From Amyloporia xantha (taxonomy: Eukaryota; Basidiomycota; Agaricomycetes; Polyporales; Adustoporiaceae), in assembly GCA_036971615.1 (NCBI GenBank), contig JAYKKR010000004.1, positions 1,736,001-1,800,000 of the forward strand: a stretch of 64,000 bases of DNA, given 5' to 3'. This document shows positions 3,981 through 60,566 of this stretch, in pieces. A model generated the notes under the pieces. That model saw nothing but the letters and a program-made list of their open reading frames with translations, was not told the origin of the DNA and ran no database searches. The number at the start of each line of letters is the position of its first letter. Positions within the stretch are counted from its first letter, which is position 1. The position numbers and the translations under genes are program-made.

Positions 3981-4110
3981 GAGCCCGTTCAGTCATATTC
4001 ACCTGACTCATAGGATATATATGGTTGACAATGTGCCCTGACCCAAGGGACGCCGGATGTCGGCCGACGCTGCAGCAGGGCCTTGAGATTCAGGCTCGGC
4101 CGGTTGCTCT
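3981..4110 (+). repeat. Left terminal inverted repeat of element 1
   Basis: Begins GAGCCCGTTCAGTCATATTC and continues with CTGACTCATAGGATATATATG and a GACGCCGGATGTCGGCCGACG block. The same blocks occur in the same order, inverted, at 27400-27500, and directly at 28238-28330 at the exposed end of element 2. Confidence 0.8.
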
Positions 4111-4129
4111 CACCACTATATAGGCTTAC

Positions 4130-4600
4130 AGGCTCGCGCGATATACTCTGCTTGTCCGCGACAATTCCTCCCTGTCTCCCTGGCTCGGCCGAGGCACTGC
4201 TGTTCCCTGTCCTGTAGCCTCGCGCGATGTGCTCTGTTTTCCCGCGACAATTCCTCCCTGTCTCCCTGGCTCGGCCGAGGTGCTGCTGTTCCCTGTCCTG
4301 TAGCCTCGCGCGATGTGCTCTGTTTTTCCGCGACAATTCCTCCCTGTCTCCCTGGCTCGGCCGAGGTGCTGCTGTTCCCTGTCCTGTAGCCTCGCGCGAT
4401 GTGCTCTGTTTTCCCGCGACAATTCCTCCCTGTCTCCCTGGCTCGGCCGAGGTGCTGCTGTTCCCTGTCCTGTAGCCTCGCGCGATGTGCTCTGTTTTTC
4501 CGCGACAATTCCTCCCTGTCTCCCTGGCTCGGCCGAGGTGCTGCTGTCCTCTGTCTGGCAGGCTCGCGCCATGTGACATTTTCCTCGGCGACAATTGCCC
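4130..4600 (+). repeat. Subterminal 86-base tandem array of element 1
   Basis: About five and a half copies of an 86-base unit; the word ATGTGCTCTG or its variant starts at 4141, 4227, 4313, 4399 and 4485. Each unit carries TCGGCCGA (4185, 4271, 4357, 4443, 4529) and, 35-36 bases on, a related TCGCGCGA. The two-site layout and the period match the arrays of elements 2 and 3 although the rest of the unit differs. Likely protein-binding sites for transposition; open frames across the array are artefacts of the repeat. Confidence 0.85.
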
Positions 4601-5143
4601 ACTGGCTGCCCCTGTCCTCCCACCAAAATCGCTTGCAGGCGGACAGCTTCACACTGTGGGGACTATCAAATTGCAAGTGAGTCTTGCCCATGTTTTACTC
4701 ATGTACATGCCATCATCTGCCTGCACCGCGGACAATTAGTTGCCAATACTCATGGCTCTCGCGCAAAACAATAGTGAAGATCGCGACTGGCAGAGTTCAC
4801 CATAGAGACCTCGCGAGAGCATATTCACCCCGGGAATACAACCCATACTAAACTCTGCCAGTTCGTCAAGTGGCTCGCAACCATAAGCACCATTAAACAT
4901 CAATGGATAAACGGTGCAAGAGGGCCACCGCGAGTTTGGGAAAGTCCATCGCGGGTCGCGCGCGCGAGCACGACAACTCCACTCAGGCTGTCGCGACCAT
5001 GGCCACTTGTAGCGAAAGGCCCCGTTATGTGTATACTGCCGAAGTGACTAATTTCATAACTCAAACTAGGGTACATACCAAGCATACAGGAGGTGAACTT
5101 CATGGTAAATTTGCAGGAAAAAAGTACATGGCTAAAGTCGCGT

Positions 5144-6524
5144 CTACTCGGGAGGACCGTCCTCGTGCTCGTCCCAGGACGGAGACCCATGCACCCACAA
5201 CTTCGTCTCCACCTTGGAGATCCTACTTTTTATGCTCGTTGTGCTCAGGTGCTGCCGAATTCCCCGCTCCAACAAGAGGATGTCGTTGAGCGCGTCGATG
5301 TCATGGTCGACCGCGATCAATTGGTCGCGAGCGTGTCGCCACATGTCGCGGAGATATGTGGCCTCGGTCGCGATAGGAAATCCTATGCTGGATGAATGGT
5401 TGAATCAAAAACATGAAACATTTGCCCACCATTGCTAATTTTATCCTTGATATGCGCGTAGCGCGCGGCGAGAGAAGTAGGTGGCAAAGGTGCTACTTCC
5501 CCGAGATGACCTGCCGCGACATCATCGCGGCGCGGAGCGTCATGGACGTCAGGGGCAGAATCTGTATTTCTCGTCTCGACTTGAGGAGCACTTCTGGAAT
5601 GGCCTTCGTCCACAATGTGTTCAATTGTGCTGTGGGTATTGAAGTTTTCGTGACGCTCCCCACCCTGCCTCTTGGTTCTGGCCTCAGCGCTGATGCGGGC
5701 GACTACTTGAGGTTCTTCATCGAAGTCATCGCTAAAATCGTCAAGAAGGATGGGCGACCGTTCGCGACTGCGCTCTGTTCCTGTATATCAGAGGTTCGCC
5801 CTATGTTATTATATCAAATGGAACACACTTGCCTTCACTCCCATGGCGTTCCATAACCTCCATAGCCTCCTTCAACACGCTTTTTAGGCCGACAGGTGAG
5901 CGGTCACGGTAGAATGCTACAATCAATATCAGTTCAATCCAAAGAGGAACTTCCTCACACACTCTGATGGACAATATTGTTGTGAGTTGGAACAATTCCG
6001 CGGCCGCGTCGGGCACGTCGAGGTCGAAGTCGCGGTCGAAGTCGAGGTCGCGGAGGTCGCGGTCAAGGTCGAGGTCGCGGTCGAAGTCAAGGTCGCGGAG
6101 GTCGCGGTCCAGGTCGCGGTCGAGGTCGCGGTGGAGGTCGAGGTCGCGGTCGAGGTCGATTGGGGTTCGCGCGCGGTTCAAATCTTCACGCCAATGCTAG
6201 ATAAGTGCCCATTCCATGTGGATATGAGGACATACCTGGATCCAAATCAAAAAATCCAAATCAATCGGGGTGCGTGCGCGGCCACCCGAGTTCTCGTCTC
6301 GGGGCACTGAATCGCGGTCTTCAAGATCGGAAATCAGTCGTATTAACATCAGCCACAAAGTGGAGATCGCGATCACTGTACTCACCTCTAGTCATAAGAG
6401 TTCCGCGGGCCTCAGACATGAGCACGTCGGGGGAGATCTGTGCGCGCCTTCGATTGGATTTGCCTATGGGTTGTCAGTACTCATCACAGCTGTGGACGAG
6501 GTCCTCACGGTTCTCCATGTCCAT
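5144..6524 (-). CDS. RSPIDL-repeat protein, left copy of element 1
   Basis: Function unknown to me. The gene runs right to left from ATG at 6524 (MDMEN, then a GTGAGG donor, as in the sister genes) to TAG at 5144. Small exons each carry a variant of the peptide R-x-R-S/T-P-I/V-x-L (RARTPIDLD twice, RDRSPVGL, RERSPILL), joined by acidic linkers. One exon holds a long Arg-Asp-Leu-Asp repeat encoded by a minisatellite (6010-6165). The last exon (5144-5382) has the most conserved block, FPIATEATYLRDMWRHARDQ followed by LIAVDHDIDAL, and predicts a helix. The same gene flanks the Zn2Cys6 gene in every element, in divergent orientation, which suggests joint regulation. The (S/T)P motifs could be phosphorylation or docking sites; that is inference. 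Exon junctions are approximate. Confidence 0.6.
6010..6165 (-). repeat. Coding minisatellite (Arg-Asp-Leu-Asp)n
   Basis: A GACCTCGACCGC-type repeat inside an exon of the RSPIDL protein gene. In the coding frame it gives alternating RDLD/FD units directly after an RTPIDLD motif. The opposite strand shows a Val-Glu-Val-Ala frame, which is a shadow. The unit itself contains the CGCGAC/GTCGCG word that is scattered throughout elements 1 and 2. Confidence 0.75.
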
Positions 6525-6883
6525 GTTCATCGATCGCGGTGTTTGTGGTCGCGACGAGGTGGGAATGCTAAGTTGTTTTCATGAGCTTATGAACATTGCA
6601 CAGGAATTTGTATTAGCACCTACTTGCAGCGGAAAGACTGGATGAGAGTACAAAGACGCGTAGCAGTTGACTTGGGATAGGAGGTCGCGATCGATTCAGG
6701 CGCCCACGTGACAAGACGATCGAAAATCGGCGATCACCTGAGCGCGCGTTGACGCGTTGCTGACATAACCCGCAACCCGTTCAGCACTTGAAGGTCGCGC
6801 GCGTCCAAGTTCATTCTGTCTTCCTCTTACCATCACCGCCACTCCAGCCTCTCTCGCTTTTCTAACCTCGCTTCTCACTGAAA
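6525..6883. promoter_or_regulatory. Bidirectional promoter of the RSPIDL/Zn2Cys6 gene pair
   Basis: Divergent intergenic region. A conserved box spans 6756-6810: GTTGCTGACATAAC, then GCAACCCGTTCAGCACTTGA, then AGGTCGCGCGCGTCCAAGT. It recurs almost base for base at 30249-30303 in element 2 and, more diverged and inverted, at 25311-25366. A CACGTGAC E-box-like word lies upstream at 6705. A pyrimidine-rich tract just before the ATG of the rightward gene fits a fungal transcription start. Which factor binds is unknown. Confidence 0.6.
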
Positions 6884-9690
6884 ATGTCCGACGCCGTCGT
6901 CCGCCAGCTCACCATCGACACCGCGACCGCGCGTATGGCGGCCGCGCTCGCTGCGCGCCCGCCCCGGGCACACAAGGCTACGTGCTCTACGAGGAGTCCT
7001 TCTACTCCGAGTTTGTGAGTACATAGCAGCCACTCATATGAGAACAGCTAACATCTTTTTCATTTCTAGAAAAAGGGCTGGCACGCGTTCCGCGACGCTC
7101 CCCGGGATGTGCGCGGGTCTCTGCGCGTGCCTATGTTGCTGTGCAGCGCACTCAGGAGTACGCCGACTCTCGCAACGGCGCCGACCTCCGCAACATCAGA
7201 GTCGACGATCCTCGCATCTCCTCGAGCGGCATGAAGAACTTCGTCATCCCTGGGCCAACTCAGGAGGTGGAGCTGGGGAACGATCAGTGGTGGGCCAAGA
7301 GAGGTAAGCACAGTGCATGTCAGTTGTCGAGGCCACTGACAAATGCTAACATCTTTCACAGCAGGAGCTCCTCCAGCGGCGCGCGAGACGCTTGCGCAAG
7401 CTCCGACGCCGGAAGCATCGACGTCGCGCGTCCCTGTCCAGAAACGGAAGTCGGATGCGCACCAGGACAGCGAGACCGCGAAGAGCAAGGCAGCAAAGCC
7501 CTCCGCTCAGGCAGACGCTGCCACCCAATCGCGCACACCCCCACCAGCGGCACCCACAGCGCAGCCCACCGCGGCCTCTATGGAGACAACACAGCAGCCC
7601 AAGAGGACAAAACCGCGGTTCGCGTTGCCCCCAGTAAATGCGCCCCCTCGCATGAAGCGCCCGGTTGTCCGGCCATCCCTGAAGAGGCCACTCGTCGACT
7701 CGGACGACAGTCCAATCGTTCTGGATTGTGTGAGGGTGCCGCCGCTACCTGAAAAAAGAAGCCGTCAAATGCAAAAGGCAAGAAGCGGGCACGTGAGGAA
7801 GAGGTGGAGGTGGAAGTGGTGGGTGGACGCGACGAGGAAGAAGAGGAGGACGATGAGAATGGGGACAAGGAGGACAAGGAGGAGGATGACGACGAGGACG
7901 AGGAGGACGCGCCGCCTCCGCGCAACGGCGAGAAGACGACCGCAGGCAAGAATGCGCCGCGCCGGTCCGCACGCACCAAGGAGAAGCAGCCTGAGCACAC
8001 CACAAGGGCCGCTGCAGAGGCTGCAAGGATCGAAGAGGCGTCTGCAGTAGCAGTGAAATCTGTAAGTCATTGCATCGTCGCGATTGTTTTACGCTCACCT
8101 GCTGGTCTGTAGGTCGTCAGCTGTGGTGTATGCGCGCAGGCCAAAAAGGTGTGCATGGTCGCGACATCACACTTCGGGCGCTGCATGTACTGCGCGCGCA
8201 ACAAGGGCAAGTGCTCTCTGGTTCCTCGGCGACCCAACGGCAAGGCGATCACTGGCCACCAGACCGCGACGGACACCGCAAAAGTGTTTCAAGAATACGC
8301 GCAGAAATGCATCCGCGACAAGGTTGCGCCGCCGGCATGGACCGTCTGGGTGAAAGACCTGGGCTTCTTGCACCAGAACAGTGACAACAAGAACATACTC
8401 CCCAACGGCCAGCTATTCGAGGAGTATGAGGCCGAGTTGGCTCAGGCGAAGAAAACCGCCGGCAAACCAACTCGCGGTGCGGTGAAGAAGACGCGGCCAA
8501 AACGAGACAGTCGCCTTGAGCGCACCTCACCGCTGCTCGACATCGACGCCGAGGACCCAGTAGAGCCAGTTGCAGGGCCCAGCCGCGCGAAGAAGCCCAA
8601 GACCGCGCCATCTCGCCGTGACCCCACACCGCCCGCCTACGTCTACCTCAAGGACCAGGAGAACCAGTGGGAGCATCACCAACTCGAAAGGTTCGACGAG
8701 CCGCAGCAAAGTCCCATTGCGCGCGAAGAGGAGGACCGCGGTCTTGCGGAGACCAACCAGGAGGCCCATCGCGCGCGCGAGACACACTCCGAGGCCTCCC
8801 ACGAGCAGCTCGCCAAGGACCAAACGGAGACCGCGCAGCTGAAGGAGACGGTCGTGGCCTTGCAAGAAAAGGTCGCCATGCTCGAGGACATCGCGAGGAG
8901 GCATGAGGCTGCCATAGTGCCCCTGGAGAAGATGGAAGACACGGTCACCGAAGTTGCCGTGCAGCTCAGGGACTTCCTCATGGAGAAGGTCCAAACATCG
9001 TTTGGAGACTATGAGGAGGATGTCGCGAGCTTGACGGAGCGCTTGGCGGCAGTGGAGGTTGCGGGGGGCACGGGCGAGGCGCGTGTCCTGCTCGAGAGCT
9101 TGACCGAGCGCATGGGTGCGGTCGAGGTTGCTGGGAGCGCTATCGAGGCGCGCGTCTTGCAGGTGGAGGAGCAACAGGAGAACATGGAAGAGTCCATGGA
9201 GAATCTCGACACGCGCGTCGAGACGGTAAGTGCGCAGGTCAACGCACTGAACAGCGCGGTCGCCTCCATCGAGCCCGAGCACCTCCAAGCGTCAATCATC
9301 AACCTTCGCGAGGAGTTCAAGAAGGTGCAGCAGTCCCTCAACGCATCGAGCATGCAAGCCTCGCTGGACACCATCTCTGCGCAGATTGACGGGTACGCGG
9401 GGCAGATGGAGGGCATCCGCAAGCAAGTCCTGGACCTCAGCGCTCGACGGGCCTATGTGCCAGAGCCCTTGTTCCAAAGCGCGGCTTCGCGCGCGACTTC
9501 TACCGCCGCCCTCGCGAGCAACATCAGCCAGGACAGTGTTCAAACACGGGATCCAAGCACGACCGCGGTGACGCGAGTTTCAATCCAGGCCGCGGATGTT
9601 CACAAAATTGCGACTGGTGGAGAACAGCAGGGGAGGACTCACAGCGCGGCACATCGTCCGCATAGATTTCTTTTTACGACGAATATTTAG
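6884..9690 (+). CDS. Zn2Cys6-like coiled-coil protein, left copy of element 1
   Basis: Probably a nuclear DNA-binding protein; exact role unknown. Exons about 6884-7014, 7070-7303, 7362-8061 and 8113-9690. Order in the protein: a conserved N-terminal region ending in a KKGWHAFRDAP block; a WW(A/T)-ended segment; a basic/proline-rich region; a Glu/Asp run (near 7840-7910); then at the start of the last exon six cysteines spaced C-x2-C-x6-C-x9-C-x2-C-x6-C (CGVC...C...CMYC...C), which fits the fungal binuclear zinc cluster. The rest is heptad-rich coiled coil, with a conserved ISAQIDGYAGQMEGI block near the end. Unusually for this zinc cluster it lies mid-protein. Frame breaks of one base near 6966, 7133 and 7757 are seen against the sister copies; the last exon is one long intact frame of over 500 codons. 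Divergent from the RSPIDL gene. Confidence 0.7.
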
Positions 9691-10055
9691 ATGTACATAC
9701 CATAGTCTCGCGAGCGCATGGGACTTCAACAGTCCCAAAAACTACTATATAAATGATTATAATTCCAGTCCAATTTCTGCGCGCGACTCAAGTTGTGAAA
9801 GAGTGGAGCAATAGTCTCTGATTAACACAAGTCTGTACAGGTCTGGAATTACAATGCATTAGATTGCCCATTAGGTGGAACATCACAAATAAGACAGCAG
9901 ACGCCACAGGCAATACTTATCGGGTGCCTTCTAAGATATCTGGTCAAAACTCGTCCGCGACTCAACAATCGCCACTAAATAACCGCGACTCAGCAACTGA
10001 CACTGGACAACCGCGACTGCGTGACGCGCCGCGCCTTGCATGGGTATCACAGGCC
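9691..10055. other. Convergent 3' intergenic region
   Basis: Lies between the 3' ends of the Zn2Cys6 gene and the HMG-like gene. AT-richer than its surroundings, with stops in all frames and TATATAAA/AATAAG-type words that could serve 3' end formation. Nothing else seen. Confidence 0.4.
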
Positions 10056-13000
10056 TCATCTTCTTCTTTGTCCATGGCCACGTTTGGCCACTTTCCTAGG
10101 ACGAGGATTATCATCTTCCTCTGAATCTTTCTCCTCGTCCTCCTCATCCTCCTCCTCGAGAGCGGGCAAAGCAGGCATTCTGCCCCCGGCACCGCGACCG
10201 CGACCTCTCGCGCGGCCGGTGGCGCGAACCGTAGCACGCGCTTGGCAGGACTTGCATTGGATTTCACCTGACCGTCTTGGCTATCTGGCCTTGCATCACC
10301 TTTCCCAGTCTTATCCTGTTTCCGCGTCGTTGCGCGTGTCGCACGCGGCTGTCCTATCGCATCTGACACGGATCCTCCTGTAGGCGCTTGAAGCATGGCC
10401 TGCTTTTCTTTCTGCGCCTTGGCCCTCGTCCATGCGCCGGGAGCAGGTCGCGAAGGTGACCCATCCTCGTCGGATTTGGTACTGTCCTTGTCGCTTGAAC
10501 CGTGAGTTCTATCAACATACATGGATGACGGGCCAGCAGTATTCTCGTGGCTGGCCCCTTGATATCGCGGTCGCGGCTGAGGACGCGCGGGCCGCGCCAC
10601 ACTTGGCCCCGCGACAGCTGTACGCCACTCCATTCCTCCCAGCGCGGGCGGTGCAGTTTGGGTGGTGGGCTTTATGGTTGCCGCGACAGGTGGCTGGCTC
10701 CCAAGACGGTCTCGCACTTTGTTAAGCAAGGCGAGCCGCGCTTCTCCAGGGCCCTGAGCTGCAGTCCGCTTGGTCGGAACCATGGCATTGGAGTCTGCAT
10801 TCAGTTGCCCACCTGCCCCTGGCACCGCTGCTTCTTGAGGGGGTCGCGAAGGGCCCGCCTGCGCGAGGGCCACGCGCGCCCGCTTGTCCTCAATGGCTTT
10901 CTCCTTCATGGCTTGACGATCCAAATTGATCCGCGCGATGTGGTCGACAGCCTTTTGTTTTGTTTGCTTATCCATCTCTTGCTCTTTCAACGCGCGGGAC
11001 GCGACCTTCTTCTGGTGTGCAGCAGCGCGCTCCTTTTGGCCGCCTCTCGCGCTAATCCCTCCGCCCATGCCCGGTCGTCTTCGGCCTCCCTTTGTAACCT
11101 TTCCTTCTCTTTCATTATAGCCAGTTCCTCCCGCTCTGTCCCGCTCTGGTTGTCCTTTTTATTCGAGGCACGGGCCTCCTGAATCCCTTGCGCGTTGTCC
11201 GGATCTACACGCGCGAGCTGTTTCTTCGCAACAGGTGGAGGTTTTGCTCGAACGGCAGCCTTGGCCGTCTCTTTCGACTTCTTCATAGCATCTAGCGCCC
11301 TCTGTGTCGCTGCTAGGTGTTCATTGAGCTGTCTCAACTTGGAATCGTCATCGGCATCTTCGAGGCTGCCTTCCCCTTGATCGCGGTCTCCAGGACTGTC
11401 GCGCGCGGAGAAGGACTGTCGCGCGTCCTCGCGACCCAACTTTCCTTCATGGTGAAGGTGCTCGCTGTGTGGAGGATCCCGCGGTAGGCTCTTCAGTAGC
11501 TCCTGAATCTGTGAACCTTGCATCCTGAGATTTGCCACCTTTGTCACCGCTCGAAATGTTAGGTGATGGCGGTTGCACCGTATTGGACCGCGATGATTCT
11601 CCACCAGTGGTGAGCGTGTGTGCCGCGGGCAGGGCAGCTGCCTGCGCCTCCGACTCCCTCATTACGTCACAGAGGAGCCTCAGCATTGGGTCGATTCGAT
11701 TGACCACGTCCATAAAGTCGATCTGTGTGCCGACGACATGTGCAGGAATGCCTGACTGTGCGGCGTCCTCCTCTTCCTCCCACCCAAATTGAACAACGTC
11801 AAACTCGCGCGTGATTAGTCCCGCGATGAGAATGAACTGCTCAATGATCGCGCTGTACCCGGCGCTATCGCGCGGAGGTTACCTTCTTCATCCAGATAAG
11901 GTGCATCATCCATCCATTGGAGGATCTCGTCGAGCCCATTCGGATCACTGTGCACATGCGGCGGGAGGTATCTTTCCGTATACTCCCAAGACGTCCAGCC
12001 CTGTTGGCACAGTGGCTGGGGAACAGGTTTAGTGCCGCGCTGCAGATTCAGGGTTAGTCGCGGTATGATATGAGACCGCGCGCCACTCACCATAAAGTTC
12101 TGCAAATTGTGAACCACTTCAAAATAGACCTCGCCCGTTCCAATTGCCATGAGGAACTTGTCTCGACGTGTCCGCGATTTCAAAGCCCAGTTTGTTGGCT
12201 TCTCGCAAATGAGTAGGGGTCATTCTCATCACCGGAGGCATCGTCGCTCTCGTCTCCAAAGTCGCGATCAACCTCATCATCTTCAGAGTCATCATCACGA
12301 CCGCGTCCGGGGACTGCGCGGGCAGGGCGCTTTCCTCGCGCCTTCTTGCTCGCCTTCCCTTTGTTCTTTTTATGCTTTCGCGCGGGCTTCTTCCGCTCCT
12401 CGATATAGGCCTCGCTGTATTCGGCCCGCGCCATTATCGCATCGCCGGCATCATCGCGCTTGACCATATACGCCTTGAACCGGAAGGGAGAGTGGCCGCC
12501 GTTGGTTACTTGTCGGTCGCGCCAGTATTGTAGCAAGCTCCTGAGGGGTCCATCCGTCATGTGCGAAGGATCGCGCAGACCCATCCCGTCCAGCGTCATT
12601 TCGTCTTCGAAATAAAGCGACGGATTCTGCGTGATATGGGTCCACGGCGCGCGGGCTTTTGCGTTGCCGGTCGCGGCCTCTGCCAAAACGTTAGAGACCA
12701 CGTGTGCAAGCGGAAATACGAGCTCACGAAAATGAATGTTCAGGAACTCGCGGAGCATGGCTTTCAAGTCGTCCAGCTTCTCGCGGCCTTCATCTGCCTT
12801 TGGCACTGGAATCAGCGGAAGGCCTTCCGCATCCACGTCCATGGCTTCCCTTATTCGCACCTTCCTCATGGCTGCACTTTGTGACTGATCTGCTACCACT
12901 CCATCCAGGAACACATTGCGACTGTATAATCCGAATTGGGTTTGTGTGTCTTCATCCCAGTTAGGCATGTCTGTGAATGGGGGTGCCCCTTCTAAATCTT

Positions 13001-15445: not shown

Positions 15446-15525
15446 AGTATAAATTGGGCCGTTAGGGGATGTCACAGTGCCAATGTAAACTCTTACTTCG
15501 GGAATAAAACCAGCGTGATACATTA

Positions 15526-38935: not shown

Positions 38936-39031
38936 ATGGACATTACATATTATGACTAAAGCAGGCACATCTCCGGGAAATGAGACTTATGTAATGCCTT
39001 GATCGAAGGAGAGAAACAATGGAGCAGACTG

Positions 39032-49886: not shown

Positions 49887-49951
49887 TGGTTCGCCATTCA
49901 CGACCCTACTAGATACACAAACATAGACAACACAAATACAGATCTGTGTAT

Positions 49952-51215: not shown

Positions 51216-51665
51216 GGCTTACAGACAGGGGATGGATGGAGATACACACCCCATCTCGCATTATTGCTCAATCTGCCATCTACTGACCATGCTGCAACAG
51301 CATGTCCATTAGCTTTGCACACTTGTTTGGTCGATCACATCGTTGAGCAAGCGCTGGCAAGATCAGGCCCAGCCGATCGGCAAGGCGTGATCCAGTGATC
51401 GAGGCGCGTCATTGGCATGTGGACCGCGATTCTCGACCACGGCGCCATTACGCCGGGGCCTCGGCCTGGGAGATGCCGCGCTCCGCCGGAGGGATGCCGG
51501 TCGGGTCTGCCCCGACATGGACGCTTGCAGTGTAAGAGAGATCAGCGGGGTTAGAACAGGACAAAAGTATCACCGGAGGTCAGACACGTCTGGGCAAATG
51601 TTCAGTTGGGAGTGCCCAAGTGTCTGTCATCCTGAGAGCATCTCGGTCTGCTTGTTGTCCTCGCC
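51216..51665. promoter_or_regulatory. Divergent promoter of TET/JBP and HMG-like genes, element 3
   Basis: 450 bases between divergent ATGs, the same length as in element 1. Contains GATCGATCA-like and GCCAATG words; I cannot find the ACATGCTGGAA word of elements 1 and 2. Confidence 0.35.
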
Positions 51666-54600
51666 ATGGGAATAGCTATCCTGCAGGCATATCTAGACAA
51701 GATCCCAGAGCAAATAGAGCGATGGCGCAACACGAAAGGCACTGCGAGGGCACCCATTGTCGATGAGGCTGTCAATATCCTCATGGAACAATTCGCAGAG
51801 CTGACAGATAAAAATGGCCTGAAAAAGGTCAAACCAACAGTTCATGGCATTGTCATCTTCGTCATTCACACATTTCTATAGTCCCTGGGGACCTATTTCA
51901 GCAACCACTACCGAATCGTAGAACCCCAGGTGCCCATCCCTGGAACGAAAAAAGGTCAGCGAGGGATATGTATCAGGAGGAGCACAAAACAGAGCTGCTA
52001 AGGGTGGCCAACGAAAGGACGGGAGGGACGAGGTCTGGCCCACCAGGAGATAGGCGCATACACCAAGGTAGTGAGCGAGTATTGGGGCAAACTGGATGAG
52101 GACGCAAAGGCGGACTACCAGATGAAGGCGGATGCGTTCAACAATGACGCCAAAGAGGTCAAGGCTGGATCTTCGGCGTGAGTGGGAGCGCGACCTTTGT
52201 GCTAAGTTAACGGCAGCTGATGGCGACGCAGGAAAGCGGACAAGGAGCTCATTCTGTTTCTGAGGAAATACGCTCGAGAGGCATACCGACGCCATGGTGT
52301 CAGGATCTTTACGTTGAGTAGCTACAAATCTCCTGATGGGAGAGTCATCATTCAGGAGTGAGCAGGCAATTTGTATCGCCTCTCACCGCTCTGACCGCTT
52401 TTCACAGACACGACTTCAACGATGAGATGGAGAATGGAAAAGCCTTTTCCAAGGTGGACGATTGGCACGCAGATACGATGGTCAAATGGGCCAAGTACAG
52501 CACAGAGGCATTTGATAGCAATCGCGAGGCGGCGTTGACAACGGAGAGGGAACGTCTCGCGGCACACGGCGAGAGCTGCTGGTCGACGATGGCGGTCTCC
52601 CGTTGATACCGCCAATGGATGGCGAGGATGCGCCATCCCTGCCTGTGATGAAATCCATGATCAGAGACTTTCTGTCTACTCACTACCGTAAGTCTTGATC
52701 CACACGGCGCTCACAAAGACGCTGATGGCGCCATAGAACGGGCTGCAGGAAGCGCCAAAGAGAAGTGCCCTTGGCGCGCGCTCAAAGTGCGTGGGGCTGA
52801 ATTTATAGAAGCAGGAATGGTGCCAGACGGCTTCCAATTCGACGATCCGTCGCATATGGTCAGGAAGGACATCATCGCGGTCCTGCATCATTGGAGAGCG
52901 GCGCAAGAGGCAAACAAGGGGCAGTGCGCGTTCCGCTTCAAGGCATACCTGAAGAGCAGGGGACGAGGATTCGGAGCTAATCCCTGCTGTGTATGAGGCG
53001 GCGAGAGCACCCAAAGGCGCTAAAGGCAAGGCGGGCCCCAAAAGAAGAAAAAGAAGGCGGTGAAAAGCGGCAAGGGCAAAGGCGTGCAACGTCTCAGCAC
53101 CGATGACGATAGCGCCGTGGACGACGACACCGAGCACGAGACTTTCAATCTGGACATCGACGTCGGGTCAACTTCCGACGAAGATGATGACAGCGAAGAT
53201 GCAAGGCGCCGCACCCAATTGGGCGCTGCTCTCACGTAGACGGCGTCAGCAATGGCTGGAGGCGGCATCGCCATCGCCAGAATTTCGCGTGATCGTGGAC
53301 GCGCTGCCTCGCATGATGGTAGTGACTTCATTTTCTCCGTAAACTAAGGCTTACCTTGTGAGTGATAGAGTGGGCTGAAGACGACAAAGCGGGCGCCGGA
53401 AGGCGCCGACTGGGCGACCTGGCACAACCCGCATCGACACTTGTCCTATATGGTTCATCGCCACGCCCATGGGCTCGATCCAGTGCTGAAGTGGCTCGAC
53501 TCGAAGCCTTATTTGAACAAGTCCGGCAGGCTGACAGGGGACGTCGGCATGATTGAACAAGTGCTCCTCGTGATCGCCATGATAAGCCGCGATCTGACGG
53601 CGGCACAGTTCGCCTTCCAGGATCCCGACGCCCCGCCTTCGGACATTCCACGCCATGTCAGCGAGAGCACCATACCCTTCGCCGTGATTGCCCAGAGGCT
53701 CGACCCACATGTATCATCGTTGTGCGCGCTGGTGAAGCAGGCACAATCTGTGCAAGGCGACGCGCCATCCATGGAAGGTAGCTCTGTCACCCGCAGTAGC
53801 ACTGCGGCCGCGGCGCAGCCAACACCTTTGGAGGCCCCACCACCGGCGTTGAAATATGGTCCACCACCTCCCCACGTTCCCAGACAGGGGAAGCCATTAC
53901 CTCGCCCTCCCATGATGCCCACTGGGAATCTCAACAAGGGTCCACCTCCCCCACTCCGCCCGAAGCCTCGCCATTTGCAAACCCTGCGGGCGGAACAGGA
54001 GCGTCGTACGCCTGACCCGCCAGCGGCATTGGCGAGGAAGCCGCGCCAATCCTCACATCCCCTAAGATAAGGCGATCGCGAGACGTGCATAATGGCCAAG
54101 TAGCTCAGCAATCCAGCTCGCCGTTGCCGGAACCTCTGCGAGGCACGCAAAAACATTCGCTTCCGTTTCCAGTCACAGGAAAACCGCCTCCAGCAAGGCC
54201 GCTAATGACCACGGGAAGATCGGTCTTTCCATCCATACCTAAGCGCGCCTTGGGTATGAGACCACGTCCACAACTAGAAGAGAGACCGCCATCAATTGAC
54301 GGCGCACCGCCTTCCTCGCCAATGGCGCCAGGGCGCGCACCACCATCCTCCCCATCGCGCTCAATGACGCAACTGTCCGCCGCGGGAGTATGGATTTCTC
54401 CTCCTCTCCACCTATTGCGATGAATCAGCTCTCACCCGTTCGAGATATGAGGGGCCTACAGGTACATTTCTCCGACCGTGAAAATCATGACAGTAAAGAC
54501 GAGAGCGACGGCGAGGCCAATCGTGGTCCTTCTCCCTCACTTCCTGTGCCAAAGCGCAAGACACGCCAAACAGCTCGGCAGGCAAAGGAGATCAATATTC

Positions 54601-54938
54601 AGGCACTGCCAACGGCAGGCGGGTCCTCGATCACGGGTGCTCTCAACGACATGAAGGTCGCCACCCACACTCGTCAGAAGACAAAAGCTAAGGAGGAAAA
54701 GTTGAAAAAGCGAAGTCACCGCGTGAGCGAAGAGGAGGAAGAGGAGGAGGAAGCAGAGAAACCACCCCAACCTCGTGAAAAGCGAAAAAAGGCGGGTCGC
54801 TCAAAGCGGGCTCTGGCGGAGACTTATAGCGATGGCGAGGAAGAGCAGGGCGAGCCTGCCCCCGCCATTCGTAGGTCATCGCGCAAGACAGGTAGGGGAG
54901 CTCAGCCCCGACCCACTAAAGCGCGTGGTCGCCGTTAG
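51666..54938 (+). CDS. HMG-box-like large accessory protein, element 3
   Basis: Diverged orthologue of the element 1 and 2 genes. The N-terminus differs (MGIAILQAYLDKIPEQIERW) but keeps APIVDEAVNILMEQF. Next, IGAYTKVVSEYWGKL and DEDAKADYQMKADAF is the clearest HMG-box-like stretch of the three. Later blocks are recognisably shared: SYKSPDGRVI, LILFLRKYAREAYRRHG, DDPSHMVRKDIIAVLHHW, AFRFKAYLK, a Lys-rich then Asp-rich patch, LDPVLKWLDSKPYLNKSG and GGSSITGALNDMKVATHTRQ. Between these lies a long proline-rich section (PPPPHVPRQGKPLPRPP) instead of the coiled coil of element 2, and the tail is Glu-rich then basic (KARGRR), stop at 54938. Single-base breaks are frequent (for example near 52570, 52975, 53225, 54070). 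Role unknown; probably nucleic-acid binding. Confidence 0.6.
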
Positions 54939-55160
54939 AATACTATTTCTCATGTACACTACCTCGCATTTAAATTCAATGGCGATGATTGAACTCAGCG
55001 CTGCGAAGGATGGCGATAGCGTGCCGCTCCCTGTGCAAGCCCCGTGGCTTACTGTGATGCCGAGGGTGTTGCCGTCATCGCACTCTCAATCTTACTGGTC
55101 GCTGGAGAGTGTACACAATGCATTCATTTGAAAGTACAGCGAAGTTACAAAAAGAATTAT
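54939..55160. other. Convergent 3' intergenic region, element 3
   Basis: Between the 3' ends of the HMG-like and Zn2Cys6 genes. No gene seen. The corresponding gaps in elements 1 and 2 are 365 and 189 bases. Confidence 0.4.
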
Positions 55161-57928
55161 CTAAGGCGAAGCGGGAGGCATCTCGGCGTCCTCGACAGCG
55201 ACGGGTGATGTTGCGGCATCAGGCTCTCGCTCCTCCGCGGCCACGCTCGCCATCTCGTCTTCGTCGATCTCCAAGGAGAAACGCCTGATTGAAGGTGTGG
55301 AGCCACCGGCGGGCGTCGACAGAGCTTCATTCGTGAAGTCCGATTGATCTCCTACAGAGCCACGCTCTGAGGTAGACCACAAAATGGGAGTGGCTCCCTC
55401 GTGAGCGCTGTCCATGATCGCCCTCGCCTTGCGCCGTCGTTGCGCGTCCTGTTCCGCCTTCTGCACAAGCTCCACCAACAGATGTGCCTTGTCCAATAGC
55501 GTCTCGGCCTCCGCGTCGTTGTGGCGAGCGACGTCACGGCGCACTGACTCAAACTGCGCGATGAGCCCCTGTAATCTCGCCTCACCTGCCTCAATGCCCG
55601 CCATCGCCTGCCGCGTCCTCTCGCTCTCATCGCGCACGTTGTCCATCAACGTGTCCACGCGCACCTCCATGTTCGCGACTTGCGCACCAAGGCGATCCAT
55701 CGCCATGTTCTCCTTGGCTGCGCGCAGATCGTCCTGCAGAACCGTGACCATTTCCTCGAGCGCAGCGATGCGAGCGACGGAGTCCTCAGAGCGCACATCT
55801 TGCAGAGTCTGCTCCGCGCCTTCAACTCTTGCCAGTAGGCCGCCAATCTGCCCTCGGCGTTATCAATGCGCTCGGTCATGTTGACCTGCTGCCTGTTGAT
55901 GGCGAGCAGTGACTGCTGGAAGTTGTCGACCATGCTACCGAGCGGTCTTGCCACGCGGTCATTATGTTGATGTTCTTCTCGAGTCGGTGGCCTTGCTCAG
56001 TGAGGTACGCCGTAAATGGCTGGAAATGAGACAGCTCCTGGTCCTGCGCGTAGCGCCTTCATCCATGGCGGTGGGGTCCTTGGAGAATCCTACGTAGTGG
56101 TGGTACTCGCCATGGTGGTCTGGCAGCCACACATTGACTTGGTCAGTTGATCGCGCCGTCCAGAAAGAGTGAAGCCGACTTACATTTTACCTCGCCAGGC
56201 CTGAGCCCAAGCCGCGCCGAGCGATCGCTCGAGCTGCTGGCCTCTGCCTCCTGGAGAGGACGGTCCGCGCGCTCCTTGCCCTTCCCTTTAGCCACCGCTG
56301 GAGGTGGCTTCCCAAGCCACGCCTTCATCGAGCTGAGCGACGTCTTCGGGAGCGGCGCTATTGGGCGGGACGCAGCCGCATCGCTAGTCGCTGACGCCAC
56401 CCGCAGCTGGCTGTCCACCTCCCGCGTCGTCCTTCGCATCGACATCCGCGCTACCCGCCTTGCCATCGTCCTTTTCCCCCTTCTTCATCCACATCCATCT
56501 CATCGCTCGCCTTCGATTCCGAACCCTTCGCCGCCGCTTTGCCCCGCTTGCCTCTATCCTCCACAAACTCCTTCCTCTCCTCATCCCAGCGCGGTGGAGG
56601 AGGCTTGATGCCATTGGCGAGGCTGTTCTTGATGACGTCCTGATACTTGCTTGCCAGGACTGCACCGTAGGGGCCCCTGATCGGATTGCCGCTCAGGTTG
56701 TGTGGCACGATCGAGCAGCCTATCTTGCGCTTCAGGCAGCGCATGCAACGCCGACCGTCCACGACAGCAAGCCTGCATTCAGCTTTGGCCTTGGCGCAAT
56801 TTCCGCAAGGCATCGCCTGAAGGCATGTCAGTCAGCATCGCTTGCCGCGCATCTGGTAAACGTACTCACCGAGACAAATGTCTCCGTCTCCTCCATCTCC
56901 TCACTCTCGCCTTGAGCATCCCTCGTCCATGTCGTCATCTTCGGGCGCCGGCGAGGCCTTCGCCTTTCCCTTTCCCTTCCCCGTCGACGATCCCGCCTTC
57001 GCCTTCGACCGCGTCTGCCTGGCGTCATCATCCTTGCCCGCAGGAGACTTGCGCGATGAAGCCTTCTCGTTCGTCTTCAACGTCGATGGCCCCGCCTTCG
57101 TCTTCGTCCGCGGCTCAGACTTGCCGGCCGTCGTTTCCTCTCCTGCCGCTTTCGCAGTGGTGGTCTTGACTCCGCCCTTGGATGCCGCCTTAGTTCCCGG
57201 CCGTCGTTGCAGCCCCTCCGCGCCGTGGCTTCTTTGTTACTGGTGCAGCGATGACGACGCCCTCATCGCCGTCCGTCGCTGGCGTCGTTCCCTTTGACCT
57301 TCTAGAGGCCGCCCCTGCGTCGTCATCCGCCCCCTTCTTCGCCACTTTCCCTCAACTCCCGCCCGCCTCTGCCTCCTCTGTCACCCCACTTGGCCCCGCA
57401 ACTCCATCCCCACCCAGCGCAACCTCGCTCGTACGCTTGCGCAACAGCGCTGCTGAGCCGTTAGTGATGACGTGGCGTAAGGTTTCGCAGTGCACTCACC
57501 TTTCCACCAAAGGTTGCCCCCGAGGTCTTCGGCAATGTAATCGCCATGCCACACGTATTTGGAGAGGCCATGGCTTTGAATGGCAGGGTCATCAACCTTG
57601 ATGGCAGTCAAGTCCACTCCGCGCTTCTTGTGCGACGCCACCGTGTATTGCGCCATGGCGCTGACCAACAGCGGCGGCACTTGTAATCCCTCGCGGTGTT
57701 TTCCCAGCGCCTTGATCTTCGCGAAGATCGATTGCTAGAGGCGCCATTATACAGACTCAGCGCCACAGTGCTCACCCTGATTGTGTTACAATCACTTACC
57801 ACTTCCTCCCAGAAGTTGCTCTCAAACACCTTGTACTTCGCGTCGCGCTTCCCGGGCAGAAATTTCAGCGCCTCTTCCAGGCGCACTGCGGCGATGATGA
57901 TGTCGCTGTTGATGCTGGAGGCGGACAT
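55161..57928 (-). CDS. Zn2Cys6-like coiled-coil protein, element 3
   Basis: Start at 57928 (MSASSINSDIIIAAVRLEEA), first exon ending NFWEEV before a GTAAGT donor. Exon 2 has LQVPPLLVSAMAQYTVAS and IKVDDPAIQSHG, ending LWWKG before its donor, as in the sister genes. A Lys/Pro/Ala-rich and then Asp/Glu-rich exon follows. The next exon begins MPCGNC...C...CMRC...C with the same C-x2-C-x6-C-x9-C-x2-C-x6-C spacing, then KRKIGCSIVPHNLSGNPI and VIKNSLANGIKPPPP, counterpart of the CIRDKVAPP block. The C-terminal part is coiled coil (RIAALEEMVTVLQDDLRAAK) and the end is acidic at 55161. Divergent from the RSPIDL gene. Breaks near 57000 and 55800. Confidence 0.65.
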
Positions 57929-58172
57929 GGTGGTAGAAGCAAGCGAGATGGGATTTGACAGCTGTGGTGATGGCGGTGGTGGTGGTGGTGGTGGTGGTAG
58001 AAGAAGAGACGAAGTCAGACCCACGCGGTGCATCGCGTTGGTTGATGGCGGGCGCCTGGCGGAAGATCCGCACCCGTTCGATCAGCACCGCACGTGTTGC
58101 GCTCATGGGTATATTAGATGCCTCTAGACGAACTTGGCACGTTTCCGCATTCCTTCCGCCTTGCTTTCAACC
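57929..58172. promoter_or_regulatory. Bidirectional promoter of Zn2Cys6/RSPIDL pair, element 3
   Basis: 244 bases between divergent starts, with a (GGTGGT)n microsatellite at 57973-57998 and a CACGTG at 58090. The GTTGCTGACATAAC box of elements 1 and 2 is not recognisable, which suggests that regulation has diverged in this lineage. Confidence 0.4.
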
Positions 58173-59892
58173 ATGTCGGAACACGCAGACGAGCTAGGTG
58201 AGCACATCATGTAGATATCCTCACGCCAACCTGCGCTCACTCCCCTCAGCCCGCCAAATACTAGACTTCGACTCCTCGCCCATCAGAGGTGATGCCCCTC
58301 GCCCTACCCTGGACTTCGAGTCCTCGCCCATCAGAGGGGATGTCCCTCGCCCAACTCTGGACTTCGACTCCTCGCCCATCAGAGGGGATGTTCCTCGCCC
58401 AATTCTGGATGTGGTGTCTTCGCCTTCGCCTTCGCCTTCACGCACTCTGCCACCAGCGCGTACGCTTGGCGATTTGTCCGCATCGCCATCGCCATCCCCG
58501 CCGCCGCTAAACTTTCGCTTTGCTATGTCGCCAACGCCTGACCTTGCCAACGTTCAGGGGGATCTGCACAACGTAGCACTCCTCTCGATATGCCGCCACC
58601 GCCGTCCGCGCCTACTTCAAAAAGACGTGTGGACCTCGTCTTCCCCCAATTAACGTCCCCTCAACTACGTAGGCCCACAATGCAGTCGGCATCTTCCCAA
58701 GATATAGATCTCTTCCGTCCATCGCTCAACATTTCGCCCTCACCGCCGAATACCTCGCTATCAAGACAACCGTTGGATTTCACCTCGCAATCGCGAATGC
58801 AGACCTCACCTTTTAGATCCGCCCTGGACCTTTCGCCATCGCAGGTAAACACCCCATTGCACCGTCCACAGCTTGACCTGGAGGCATCTCCAGAGCGAGT
58901 GCACAGCGCCCAGCCTACCTTCGAGTCGCCTGTCCCTCATCGTGCACACCTCGACTTGTCGCCATCGCTGTCTCAGTCCTCCAGCTCCGCGATCAGCTGG
59001 ATCTCCGGCCACTCCATCCCCAGGTATGTCCACACTCATGTTTTTAAACCTATTTCCTACTGACACTCCATTCCTCTACTATTGAAGATAGAGGCGCGCC
59101 TATGGATGGCGTCGTGGATGGCGGCGTGGATGGCGGCGTGGACGGCGGGATGGACGGCGGGATGGACGGCGCACTTGATCACGACCTTGCGCATAGCCAA
59201 GATGGCGATGTTGACATGGCGGATGAGCGCCTCATCCAACTCAATCGCCAGGTATTTTGCCTCGCTTTCTCTTGCCTTTGTGTTTGAATACTCATAGACA
59301 GTACCTTGACATTATAAATGAGGTGTTGGACGAGCACAACATACCCCGCGGTCCTCTGGTAAGTGAAAGCCCTCCATCGCCTTCATCGTCATGCTGATAC
59401 CACTCCAGGACTTGGAGGCACACCGTCAGCGGCTCAGAGACCGTGGCCAGGATCTCCCTCGTACCTTCGCCCTCGCTCCCATTCTGGATCACGACGAGGA
59501 CATCATTGACTCAAGTAAGTACAGCGAAATTCACCCTTTCACCATACTTAAATATGCAAAGAATTGGAGAATCCATACTTTGATGATGGCAGAGGCCACT
59601 CCCCCAATAGCGCCATGAACGCCATCGAGATTAAATTCGGTATGACTCTGCGCTCGCAATTTGCCATTCGCTAAAGAAAACAATAGAAGGTTTTCCTCGC
59701 GGAAGCGAAGAAAACTTGATGTTCCTTCAAGCGCAATCCCTGAGCGAGAGGTTACGACGTATAGAAGAGGACATTGACGTCGCCAACGCAATCTTGAAGC
59801 TGCACCAGCCCATCAAATCCTTGCTCACAGCCAAGCCACCGCAGGGCGGGACCACTGGGGTTGAAGCCATGATGTGGAATGGCGAGATATAA
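58173..59892 (+). CDS. RSPIDL-type repeat protein, element 3
   Basis: Start at 58173 (MSEHADEL before a GTGAGC donor), counterpart of MDSDIDN. Exon 2 holds three tandem 48-base units giving LDFDSSPIRGDVPRPT (58262-58410), then further SP-rich motifs such as SLNISPSP, LDFTSQS, LDLSPSQ, LDLEASPE and LDLSPSLS. So the (S/T)P plus acidic/leucine theme is kept but the exact RSPIDL word is lost. A later exon has the Asp-Gly-Gly minisatellite (59100-59165). The terminal exon keeps the layout of the family: LMFLQAQSLSERLRRIEEDI, then DVANAILKLHQP, ending at 59890-59892. Orthology rests on position, exon 1, the motif theme and the helical end; sequence identity is low. Single-base breaks near 58600 and 59660. 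Confidence 0.55.
59100..59165 (+). repeat. 12-base coding minisatellite
   Basis: Five to six units of GGATGGCGGCGT or GGACGGCGGGAT, coding for Asp-Gly-Gly-Val/Met in the frame of the RSPIDL-type gene. It is rich in TGGCG, the short word common through element 3. Confidence 0.75.
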
Positions 59893-60089
59893 TTCGTTAT
59901 ACAGTATATACTCCGATGTCGTTGGCATCAAGGACAAAATGTAGTCACAGAATATTGAGTTGCTTTACCAATATACGCGAACACATGACCTGGCGGCGCC
60001 GATACCGCGCCATGAAAATACCATCCCAGTGGGCATACCAGGCCCATAAGCGCGGCGCGCCATGATGCGTGATATGAATACCACTGCAT

Positions 60090-60566
60090 CCACCATCGGC
60101 CGACGCTACTTGAAGGCGATAATATACCACGGAAATATGGCGCACTCGGCCGCGCCGTGTCTAAAGGCTATATTATACCCTCTCGGCCGACGCTACTTGA
60201 AGGCGATAATATACCACGGAAATATGGCGCACTCGGCCGCGCCATGTCTACAGGCTATATTATACCCTCTCGGCCGACACTACTTGAAGGCGATAATATA
60301 CCACAGAAATATGGCACACTCGGCCGCGCCGTATCTAAAGGCTATATTATACCCTCTCGGCCGACGCTACTTGAAGGCGAGAATATACCAGGGAAATATG
60401 GCGCACTCGGCCGCGCCGTATCTACAGGCTATATTATACCCTCTCGGCCGACCCTTCACTGCAGGCTATAGCGATGGTGTCGGCCGACGTCCGCTCTCCT
60501 TACTAAGTAATAAAAATTTCACCCATATCTCTCCCTATAGAGTAGGCTATAGTGACTGTATGGTGT
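60090..60566 (-). repeat. Right subterminal array and terminal repeat of element 3
   Basis: TCGGCCG at 60096, 60183, 60270, 60357 and 60444 (steps of 87), with a second CGGCCG 50 bases after each (60147, 60234, and so on), giving the 50/37 alternation. Then CACTGCAGGCTATAGCGATG and the terminal repeat ending TGACTGTATGGTGT. It is the inverted counterpart of 42398-43130. The open frame over the array is an artefact. Confidence 0.9.

Follow-up and report, generated by a model that had tools for sequence, protein, structure and literature searches.

The window analysed here, a stretch of 64,000 nt from Amyloporia xantha (GCA_036971615.1, contig JAYKKR010000004.1, positions 1,736,001-1,800,000, forward strand), holds three KDZ elements, namely A (3981-27501), B (28237-42397) and C (42398-60567), as found by comparing the translated frames among themselves. 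Read in the orientation of A, their common gene set consists of RSPIDL (-), Zn2Cys6-coiled-coil (+), HMG-like (-), TET/JBP (+), CxC2-KDZ (-) and WWxW (+). These six genes form three back-to-back pairs: RSPIDL with Zn2Cys6, HMG with TET, and KDZ with WWxW. The features of element A are as follows.

3974..3980, no strand: 7-bp target duplication GTACTAG left of A (end comparison)
3981..27501, plus strand: element A, 23.5 kb, ends GAGCCCGTTCAGTCA / TGACTGAAAGGTGTG, identical ends in 10 other A copies
4133..4575, plus strand: 86-bp tandem array at the left end, one CGGCCG per unit
5144..6530, minus strand: RSPIDL gene (predicted model, approximate)
6589..9665, plus strand: Zn2Cys6-coiled-coil gene (predicted model, approximate)
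10056..13882, minus strand: HMG-like gene with a long C-terminal part (predicted model, approximate)
14191..15445, plus strand: TET/JBP dioxygenase, 347 aa model (Pfam, CcTET alignment)
15526..18893, minus strand: CxC2-KDZ transposase (Pfam)
19351..19890, plus strand: WWxW gene, copy 1 (start approximate)
20890..21419, plus strand: WWxW gene, copy 2 (start approximate)
22531..25228, minus strand: second Zn2Cys6-coiled-coil gene
25700..26603, plus strand: second RSPIDL gene (start approximate)
27502..27508, no strand: 7-bp target duplication GTACTAG right of A (end comparison)

A preliminary description of this DNA had assigned one set of five to six genes to each element. Element A exceeds this, running to 27501 with two WWxW genes, a second Zn2Cys6 gene (-) and a second RSPIDL gene (+). 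The additional Zn2Cys6/RSPIDL pair (22.5-26.7 kb) was considered as the remnant of a fourth element and rejected, as it lies inside the ends of A and two Zn and two RSPIDL matches occur in 10/10 other A copies with fetched ends. The HMG-like gene of the A copy in the window carries one 1-nt frameshift relative to 4/4 other A copies read there. Elements B and C contain the following features.

28237..42397, plus strand: element B, right part missing, left end CACACCTTTCAGTCA
28871..30122, minus strand: RSPIDL gene of B
30169..33168, plus strand: Zn2Cys6-coiled-coil gene of B
33394..37315, minus strand: HMG-like gene of B
37688..38935, plus strand: TET/JBP dioxygenase of B
39032..42336, minus strand: CxC2-KDZ transposase of B
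42398..60567, minus strand: element C, 18.2 kb, inverted, terminal inverted repeats of 208 nt (96%)
42486..43129, no strand: 86-bp tandem array of C, left end
45492..45818, minus strand: WWxW gene of C (conserved reading frame)
46323..49961, plus strand: CxC2-KDZ transposase of C
49958..51254, minus strand: TET/JBP dioxygenase of C
51666..55057, plus strand: HMG-like gene of C (modelled in two pieces, approximate)
55161..57734, minus strand: Zn2Cys6-coiled-coil gene of C
58225..59892, plus strand: RSPIDL-family gene of C (LDF[DE] repeats, GFP...DI...IL tail)
60096..60452, no strand: 87-bp tandem array of C, right end

The order RSPIDL, Zn2Cys6, HMG-like, TET/JBP, CxC2-KDZ and all relative orientations had been described as identical in the three elements, with C inverted as a whole, and the comparison of translated frames bears this out. 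Only blocks align between the elements, as had been stated, and frame-against-frame comparison recovers shared blocks in all three. The limits proposed earlier, 3981 and 60566, coincide with true element ends (3981 and 60567). A WWxW gene next to KDZ, claimed for all three, is present in A and C; B is without one in the window because C separates its KDZ gene from the opposite end of the element, and WWxW matches are present in each of eight other B copies with fetched ends. RSPIDL, likewise claimed for all three, is found in A and B, and in C is recognisable only by the C-terminal block GFP...DI...IL and degenerate LDF[DE] repeats.

Two further annotations were weighed and not adopted. The HMG-like region and its C-terminal block might have been two genes; the predicted A and B models join them, while the C model is in two pieces. 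A non-coding stretch beside the WW gene of C was considered as a separate repeat and rejected, as 39/40 scored matches of 97-100% lie within 8 kb of a CxC2 match (40 matches scored of 82 candidates). Rfam microRNA matches in this stretch were far below gathering scores.

The ends of the elements read CACACC...GGGCTC or GAGCCC...GGTGTG. These end motifs occur 127 and 140 times in the genome, against 0 and 5 times for the reversed patterns. Pairing took in 90 of the 127 and 100 of the 140 end places, leaving 46 ends unpaired, and formed 72 end pairs, 54 long and 18 short. Matches to Zn, HMG, TET and CxC2 lie inside 49/54 long pairs, and HMG, TET or CxC2 matches were found in 0/18 short pairs. 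Exact 7-bp target duplications flank 24/28 fetched copies over four families, in addition to A in the window, and one further copy has 6/7; C in the window has no target duplication at its ends. Since the ends are conserved and the 7-bp duplications exact, the six-gene set of 17-24 kb is mobile as a whole. It is a KDZ transposon of the 7-bp-duplication kind, Kyakuja-like by duplication length, and at least four diverged families (A, B, C and E) retain the set, with conserved ends and flanking 7-bp duplications. Over well-aligned stretches, most copies of A, B and C are about 97-100% alike and have therefore moved recently.

The order and orientation Zn(+)HMG(-)TET(+)KDZ(-) was examined in 43 of the 54 long end pairs and is present in all 42 elements that hold the four genes, which excludes chance. 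The prior refuting case, partner genes lying mostly away from KDZ, is not what this genome presents: loci within 30 kb of a CxC2 match number 105/108 for Zn, 91/93 for HMG, 43/43 for RSPIDL and 69/76 for WWxW, against a chance expectation of about 14% of the genome. These counts cover all 150 CxC2, 114 TET and 122 Zn rows, and 105/150 HMG, 76/100 WWxW and 43/50 RSPIDL rows; omitted rows were taken as second stretches of counted loci, and matches less than 1.2 kb apart were merged. Together with the shared ends and duplications in four families, this linkage supports the earlier proposal that RSPIDL, Zn2Cys6, HMG-like and WWxW are parts of the mobile unit. WWxW genes on contigs C39 and C16, far from CxC2, were set aside as counter-evidence, as the stretches read on the two contigs are internal-deletion derivatives that have the same ends. 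A protein database search returned 1 HMG, 1 Zn and 7 TET matches, and the co-occurrence figures are therefore from one genome. A partner match within 30 kb is missing for 46/150 CxC2 matches, suggesting that the set was added to KDZ transposition; these 46 may, however, be immobile, or have partners too diverged for the queries.

The linkage of KDZ and TET is already known. Iyer et al. 2014 reportedly described KDZ transposons that carry TET/JBP together with a divergent HMG protein, and the present elements resemble those in combining KDZ, TET/JBP and an HMG-like gene. To our knowledge, that work describes neither the complete unit with its ends and arrays nor the Zn2Cys6, RSPIDL and WWxW families. 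We found no published description of the full six-gene unit with its arrays, including in the accessible part of the main text of Kojima 2025. According to that part (PMC12730594), TET-positive Kyakuja elements have 5'-CA..TG-3' ends without inverted repeats, and Dileera and Zisupton make 8 bp duplications. The present elements share with TET-positive Kyakuja a KDZ transposase, an AG-type TET with HxD and the Asp337 position, and 7-bp target duplications. In contrast, their ends are CACACC.../GAGCCC..., with 208-nt inverted repeats (96%) in C, and the unit contains four further gene families and terminal arrays, whereas the accessible text on Kyakuja mentions no further genes (PMC12730594). 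Cryptococcus KDZ1-3 also have a KDZ transposase with a cysteine cluster, and terminal inverted repeats of 139-241 bp, but differ in having CxC1 instead of CxC2, 8-bp or 4-8 bp duplications and a length of about 9-11 kb, with no TET set mentioned in the part of the source available (PMC12810828).

Among the earlier family labels, KDZ and TET are certain (Pfam, CcTET matches), and 'HMG-like' and 'Zn2Cys6' stay below Pfam thresholds. The KDZ model of A contains the catalytic and cysteine-cluster domains (PF18758, 1.8e-41, 142.7 bits; PF18803, 8.2e-19, 68.2 bits). The TET model of A matches PF12851 (2.8e-19) and, over the catalytic domain, CcTET (E 4e-32). Aligned with CcTET, for which the numbering follows the accessible part of Kojima 2025 (PMC12730594), the A model, the only one compared, shows HxD as His-Arg-Asp, a second His, Arg, Ser at 331 and Asp at 337. 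It thereby has the residues of AG-type TET/JBP enzymes, namely HxD, the second His, the Asp337 position and Gly/Ser at 331.

The putative Zn2Cys6 protein carries C-X2-C-X6-C-X9-C-X2-C-X6-C in A, the second copy of A, B and C; that of E has one residue fewer in the middle, and the six cysteines are aligned in 5/5 rows. The binuclear cluster pattern is C-X2-C-X6-C-X5..12-C-X2-C-X6..8-C. Pfam Zn_clus scored 12.2 bits on the B piece, below the cut-off of 21, and a PDB sequence search gave Ppr1 alone (E 4, non-significant). The AlphaFold model of the cluster is of low confidence (pLDDT 54), and the first four matches of a fold search with it were Leu3 Zn2Cys6 chains (E 1.7-6, non-significant). The HMG-like protein has no Pfam match; its PDB sequence search gave Nhp6A alone as a weak match (E 0.73), and its conserved exon, folded with a short in-frame intron read through, reached pLDDT 35. 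RSPIDL is an acidic chain in which P-[I/V]-D-L motifs recur, with a conserved tail. The core of SUMO-interacting motifs is a repeated [PILVM][ILVM]DLT-like sequence. Relaxed cores of this pattern number 2, 3, 4 and 4 in A, the second copy of A, B and C, and 51, 7, 0 and 0 of 2000 shuffles reach the same counts; the strict core occurs once, in B.

All six genes have an A-B dN/dS below 1: 0.06 for KDZ, 0.12 for TET, 0.13 for HMG, about 0.16 for WWxW (dN 0.24, dS 1.46, against B copy L047), 0.38 for Zn and 0.53 for RSPIDL. The A-B pS is 0.63-0.69 in Zn, HMG, TET, KDZ and WWxW, and 0.47 in RSPIDL on 82 codons. Family relationships, which the preliminary description had required to be congruent, agree in the pairwise comparisons made: for all six genes A is nearer to B than to C, and for Zn, RSPIDL and WWxW family C is nearer to E than to either A or B. 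The host genome contains DNA_methylase matches above cut-off. Between-copy transitions are twice as frequent at CpG as at other C/G positions (53/7958 vs 62/20055; 32/6486 vs 36/16295 without the badly aligned B WW-end set). CpG observed/expected is 1.0-1.1 in the elements, so strong methylation-driven decay is not seen.

In families A, B and C the arrays near the ends are CGGCCG-rich, with units of 86-87 bp in A and C and 76-77 bp at one B end. Over 50 end rows (49 distinct ends, one B end having been entered twice as L018 and L052), CGGCCG occurs 406 times in 49.9 kb inside (8.1/kb) and 23 times in 48.4 kb outside (0.5/kb), counts that are inflated by tandem copies of one array unit; GCCGGC occurs 20 times inside and 17 times outside. 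In the window, the element ends have 11.2 CGGCCG per kb versus 0.27 in element interiors. The palindromes GCGCGC, GGCGCC, CCGCGG and GCCGGC are not enriched in the window ends; GGCCGG, which overlaps CGGCCG, is also commoner there (3 in 3.9 kb vs 4 in 51.9 kb). In family E the motif is half-changed, to TTGGCCGA and GGGCCGAC, both of which keep the TCGGCC core; 22 such cores lie in 1.2 kb (one end read). In the C39/C16 derivatives this core is only weakly enriched, with 5, 7, 6 and 7 inside and 3, 1, 1 and 4 just outside.

CGGCCG is a palindrome of the triplet bound by Zn2Cys6 proteins. Sites for the transposase are an equally plausible reading of the arrays. Arrays of the kind associated with VANC are present, carrying CGGCCG (A, C) or the TCGGCC core (E) in 86-87 bp units, and in 76-77 bp units at a B end. 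VANDAL elements are MuDR-type elements not known to carry a TET gene, and VANC is not known to be a Zn2Cys6 protein; TnpA binds subterminal repeats, and Spm/En has a CACTA transposase and is not known to carry a dioxygenase. The present unit resembles VANDAL/VANC of Arabidopsis, as far as the accessible part of PMC10398659 describes it, in an element-encoded sequence-specific factor, here predicted, a short motif in rapidly diverging non-coding tandem arrays, and family specificity. The same source links maize Spm/En TnpA, also element-encoded, with demethylation of its own element, a role that is predicted here (PMC10398659, in part).

These features suggest that the elements bring along machinery of their own for evading silencing. 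The function, which the preliminary description had left open, is supported indirectly by the CGGCCG arrays. We give an even chance to the reading that the six-gene unit with CGGCCG-rich ends is an addressed anti-silencing system, encoded by the element itself and added to its transposase. By analogy with plant VANC and TnpA, the Zn2Cys6 protein most likely marks the ends, where the CcTET-like enzyme strips methylation. Specifically, the Zn2Cys6-coiled-coil protein would bind the CGG/CCG palindromes of the terminal arrays as a dimer, and the HMG-like protein would bend or open the array DNA. TET, recruited or given access at the arrays, would oxidise 5-methylcytosine placed at CpG-containing array sites by host DNA methyltransferases. 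The ends, now unmethylated and assembled, would then be open to cutting by the KDZ transposase. RSPIDL may serve as a chromatin adaptor, possibly via SUMO, and family-specific array units would keep each machinery on its own family. The specific version, an addressed demethylation machine in which Zn2Cys6 reads CGG palindromes in its own arrays and brings its own TET, with family-specific arrays and readers diverging together, is put forward tentatively, at somewhat less than even odds.

The extra proteins may instead be parts of the transposition complex with no role in anti-silencing: Zn2Cys6 and the HMG-like protein would bind and bend the arrays and join ends 18-24 kb apart, RSPIDL and WWxW would be assembly factors, and TET would act on an intermediate. 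We regard this as unlikely. A transpososome would form near the ends, which is where the arrays do lie, the genes have been conserved as a group, and gene-poor derivatives keep both ends; yet the 46 CxC2 matches mentioned above have no nearby partner match, the mobile Cryptococcus KDZ1-3 are described with KDZ and CxC1 domains only in the available part of PMC12810828, and a DNA demethylase is unexpected as a synapsis factor. It is quite improbable that TET writes rather than erases, with stable oxidised bases (5hmC or 6mA products) shielding or marking the element for its own machinery, comparable to base J. The enzyme is CcTET-like with the Asp337 position, a type with reported 5mC and 6mA activity (Kojima 2025, PMC12730594, in part), and transposon classes of two mushrooms show enrichment of 5hmC and 5fC (PMC8889193, in part), but Pfam detected no glycosyltransferase or modified-base reader in the proteins scanned. 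The least probable reading, in which Zn2Cys6 is a self-repressor or copy-number regulator acting via the terminal arrays and TET and the rest serve the host or are passengers, fits the higher Zn and RSPIDL divergence expected of a fast-changing specificity factor and the two diverged Zn/RSPIDL pairs in A, but passengers would not show the low dN/dS of TET and HMG over large synonymous divergence, nor keep a fixed order in 42/42 elements.

The question at stake is why fungal transposons carry TET genes, and the published answer, in the text accessible, stops at the enzyme. Here, TET is one of six genes in a fixed unit whose ends are defined and which offers both a candidate DNA-reading partner and its candidate target, in four diverged families. 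The notion that TET may help escape silencing thus becomes testable by binding, methylation mapping and deletion. The unit offers a counterpart to VANC and TnpA that also contains the catalytic eraser. If the reading as an addressed demethylation machine is true, these elements would be, to present knowledge, the first transposon with both address and eraser. They also show how a basidiomycete DNA transposon keeps a 17-24 kb set of accessory genes, and how such a unit is exploited by gene-poor derivatives.

The six gene families make up, with near certainty, one mobile unit. The window corresponds to C34:1736001-1800000 of the 46.8-Mb genome (60 contigs, each denoted by C and a number). Comparison of the frames of its three elements, A (3981-27501), B (28237-42397) and C (42398-60567), with one another gave a shared order and orientation for all six families, namely RSPIDL(-), Zn2Cys6-coiled-coil(+), HMG-like(-), TET/JBP(+), CxC2-KDZ(-) and WWxW(+), with three back-to-back pairs: RSPIDL and Zn2Cys6, HMG and TET, and KDZ and WWxW. 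In element C the set is inverted as a whole. The gene models, spliced from conserved blocks and built without transcripts, are approximate. Element B of the window is devoid of WWxW because its KDZ gene is followed immediately by element C; WWxW matches are present in all eight other B copies fetched. Among 43 long end pairs examined, 42 contain Zn, HMG, TET and KDZ matches, and all 42 show Zn(+)HMG(-)TET(+)KDZ(-). Family E, a fourth diverged family elsewhere in the genome, was seen in part: the RSPIDL tail and Zn at the fetched loci L063 and L064, the WWxW tail at L062, and between them HMG, TET and CxC2 matches in the order and strands of A. The HMG-like gene of window A carries a 1-nt frameshift at 13277-13530, a place that is intact in 4/4 other A copies read there.

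Ten further A copies start and stop at the same bases, as do eight B copies, one element end being CACACCNNNCAGTCA and the other GAGCCCNTTCAGTCA. The seven flanking bases are identical at both ends in 8/10 A, 7/8 B, 5/6 C and 4/4 E copies fetched, the eighth B copy agreeing at six of seven positions, and window A has the 7-bp duplication GTACTAG at both ends. As a control, A and B ends were paired wrongly; 3 of 306 such pairings agreed at six or more of seven positions, one of these being a flank swap between two A copies. The gene set therefore sits within a unit whose transposition creates 7-bp duplications. CATGCTA is found at the left end of the A copy L024 (C25:76800-80900) and at the right end of the A copy L041 (C41:160700-164900), each end being without a duplication partner of its own; this sharing reflects either ectopic exchange between the two copies or an assembly join.

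A repeat starting TGGTACTAGGACACTC has two copies in the window (818-1031 and 27500-27722). One of the two was interrupted by A, which makes the copy at 818 look like the empty site. Window C shows no target duplication (flanks GCTGGGG and ATGAACG at 42398 and 60567), and a search of 20 kb beyond the window found no further end motif, so a rearrangement accompanied or followed the insertion of C. A retroelement with a reverse transcriptase and RNase H frame (60556-62412) abuts the right end of C.

The end motifs occur 127 and 140 times genome-wide; reversing them as a control gave 0 and 5 occurrences. Among the matches listed (the first 100 places per motif), 190 ends were used, giving 72 pairs and 46 unpaired ends. 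Zn, HMG, TET and CxC2 matches lie in 49 of the 54 pairs of at least 16.9 kb. The 18 shorter pairs (3.5-9.1 kb) are gene-poor derivatives, with HMG, TET and CxC2 in none, Zn in one and WWxW in five.

B, C and E carry CACACC at the RSPIDL end and GAGCCC at the WWxW end. Element A has a second RSPIDL/Zn pair at the CACACC end and the first pair at the GAGCCC end; this suggests that, after gain of the second pair, the interior of the element was inverted. This double-ended arrangement has multiplied, being found in 10/10 fetched copies. The loci L058-L061 (C39:91000-108500, C16:425500-441000) are internal-deletion derivatives with both ends retained, together with the RSPIDL tail, Zn2Cys6 start, KDZ start and WWxW. 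WWxW matches are regularly spaced on both contigs, as tandem arrays would have them: 15.6 kb apart on C39, where there are four, and about 12.4 kb apart on C16. Among the matches listed, five GAGCCC ends follow one another in one direction at 6.2-kb spacing on C23:349404-374254, which may be a further tandem array made of short derivatives.

About 14% of the genome lies within 30 kb of a CxC2 match. Counted by locus, with copies non-independent, 105/108 Zn, 91/93 HMG, 43/43 RSPIDL and 69/76 WWxW loci fall within this distance. The Zn matches include 17 A, 9 B and 11 E loci, and family C accounts for at least 40 matches at 97-100%. The independent evidence for linkage is the set common to four diverged families, together with the C39/C16 deletion derivatives. 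Conversely counted, 46 of 150 CxC2 matches have no partner match within 30 kb. Of 79 TET matches scoring over the Pfam cut-off, 73 have a CxC2 match no more than 15 kb away and 77 have one within 30 kb. Among sub-cut-off TET/JBP matches (23-33 bits), 17/35 have no CxC2 match within 30 kb (for example C32:3109, C45:96458, C23:1106922, C60:143831 and C59:612534); several share a common 141-aa frame and one score, and they resemble copies of a different repeat that carries TET.

In six of six genes A is nearer to B than to C. For C and E the comparison covers Zn, RSPIDL and WWxW, and in all three C is nearer to E than to A or B. The congruence of gene families, put forward in the preliminary description for a module kept together, is thus borne out at family level by the A-B and C-E affinities. 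Synonymous differences per site between A and B are 0.63-0.69 in Zn, HMG, TET, KDZ and WWxW; they reach 0.79 in the C-terminal block of HMG and fall to 0.47 in a short block of RSPIDL. The A-B dN/dS is below 1 in all six genes, at 0.06 for KDZ, 0.12 for TET, 0.13 for HMG, about 0.16 for WWxW (84 codons, B copy of locus L047), 0.38 for Zn and 0.53 for RSPIDL (interval 0.31-0.90), the ratios being rough with dS near saturation. One region departs from family-level divergence:

Window 43474-45585 and L062 6-1762: non-coding stretch by the WW gene, holding 157- and 314-bp repeats

In this stretch of about 2 kb, C-E identity is 85-96%, compared with 68-75% in adjoining coding and array DNA, suggesting that parts of the ends have at times been exchanged or homogenised. 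A 701-base part of it has at least 40 matches at 97-100%; 39 of the 40 scored sit no more than 8 kb from a CxC2 match.

The KDZ-TET(-HMG) association is already known; Iyer, in 2014, reportedly noted that KDZ-TET elements come with a divergent HMG protein. TET-positive Kyakuja with 7-bp duplications have been described, and the words HMG, Zn2Cys6 and coiled are absent from the main text of that paper (Kojima 2025, PMC12730594). A partial literature search, made largely among open-access papers, found no description of the complete set. What seems to be new is the complete unit, with its arrays, the ends that mark this subgroup and the other three families.

Tandem repeats lie near the ends, with units of 86-87 bp (A left, both ends of C, E and derivatives) or 76-77 bp (WWxW end of B); at A's right end and B's left end the motif is present and no 86-bp array was called. 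The units are family-specific, yet CGGCCG is common to A, B and C. It occurs 44 times in 3.9 kb of window ends versus 14 times in 51.9 kb of element interior. GCGCGC, GGCGCC, CCGCGG and GCCGGC show no enrichment in the same comparison, and GGCCGG, which overlaps CGGCCG, counts 3 versus 4. At fetched ends (50 end rows, 49 distinct ends), CGGCCG counts 406 in 49.9 kb inside versus 23 in 48.4 kb outside, and GCCGGC 20 versus 17. Family E has few CGGCCG and, at the one end read, 22 TCGGCC cores in 1.2 kb; the C39/C16 derivatives show a weak excess of TCGGCC (5-7 per 1.2 kb versus 1-4 just outside). Zn2Cys6 proteins bind mirror-image CGG triplets, as established for Gal4, Ppr1 and Leu3. The Zn2Cys6 protein of the elements has six cysteines in 5/5 copies aligned. 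It scores below Pfam significance (12.2 bits vs 21), and its PDB sequence search (Ppr1, E 4) and fold search (Leu3, E 1.7) were likewise below significance.

The TET catalytic domain aligns with CcTET and retains its metal ligands as well as the Asp337 position; CcTET is described as active on 5mC and 6mA (Kojima 2025, PMC12730594). The HMG-like label derives from a non-significant match to Nhp6A, the protein having no Pfam match. The RSPIDL chain is acidic and repeats P-I/V-D-L cores, in excess over shuffles in B, in C and in the second gene copy of A, and weakly so in the first copy of A; its tail is conserved and recurs in A, B, C, E and the derivatives. The small WWxW protein has a WWxW...WW core that does not vary among the three copies aligned.

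Host DNA_methylase matches are present. Transitions among copies are twice as frequent at CpG (53/7958) as at other C/G (62/20055), and number 32/6486 versus 36/16295 without the badly aligned B WW-end set. The elements have a CpG observed/expected ratio of 1.0-1.1. This pattern fits elements that meet some methylation and mostly escape it, and also fits a host with little methylation. The main rival reading gives part of the set a role in the transpososome; it is compatible with anti-silencing, and both can hold. The best reading, evenly balanced between right and wrong, is that the gene set may form an addressed anti-silencing system.
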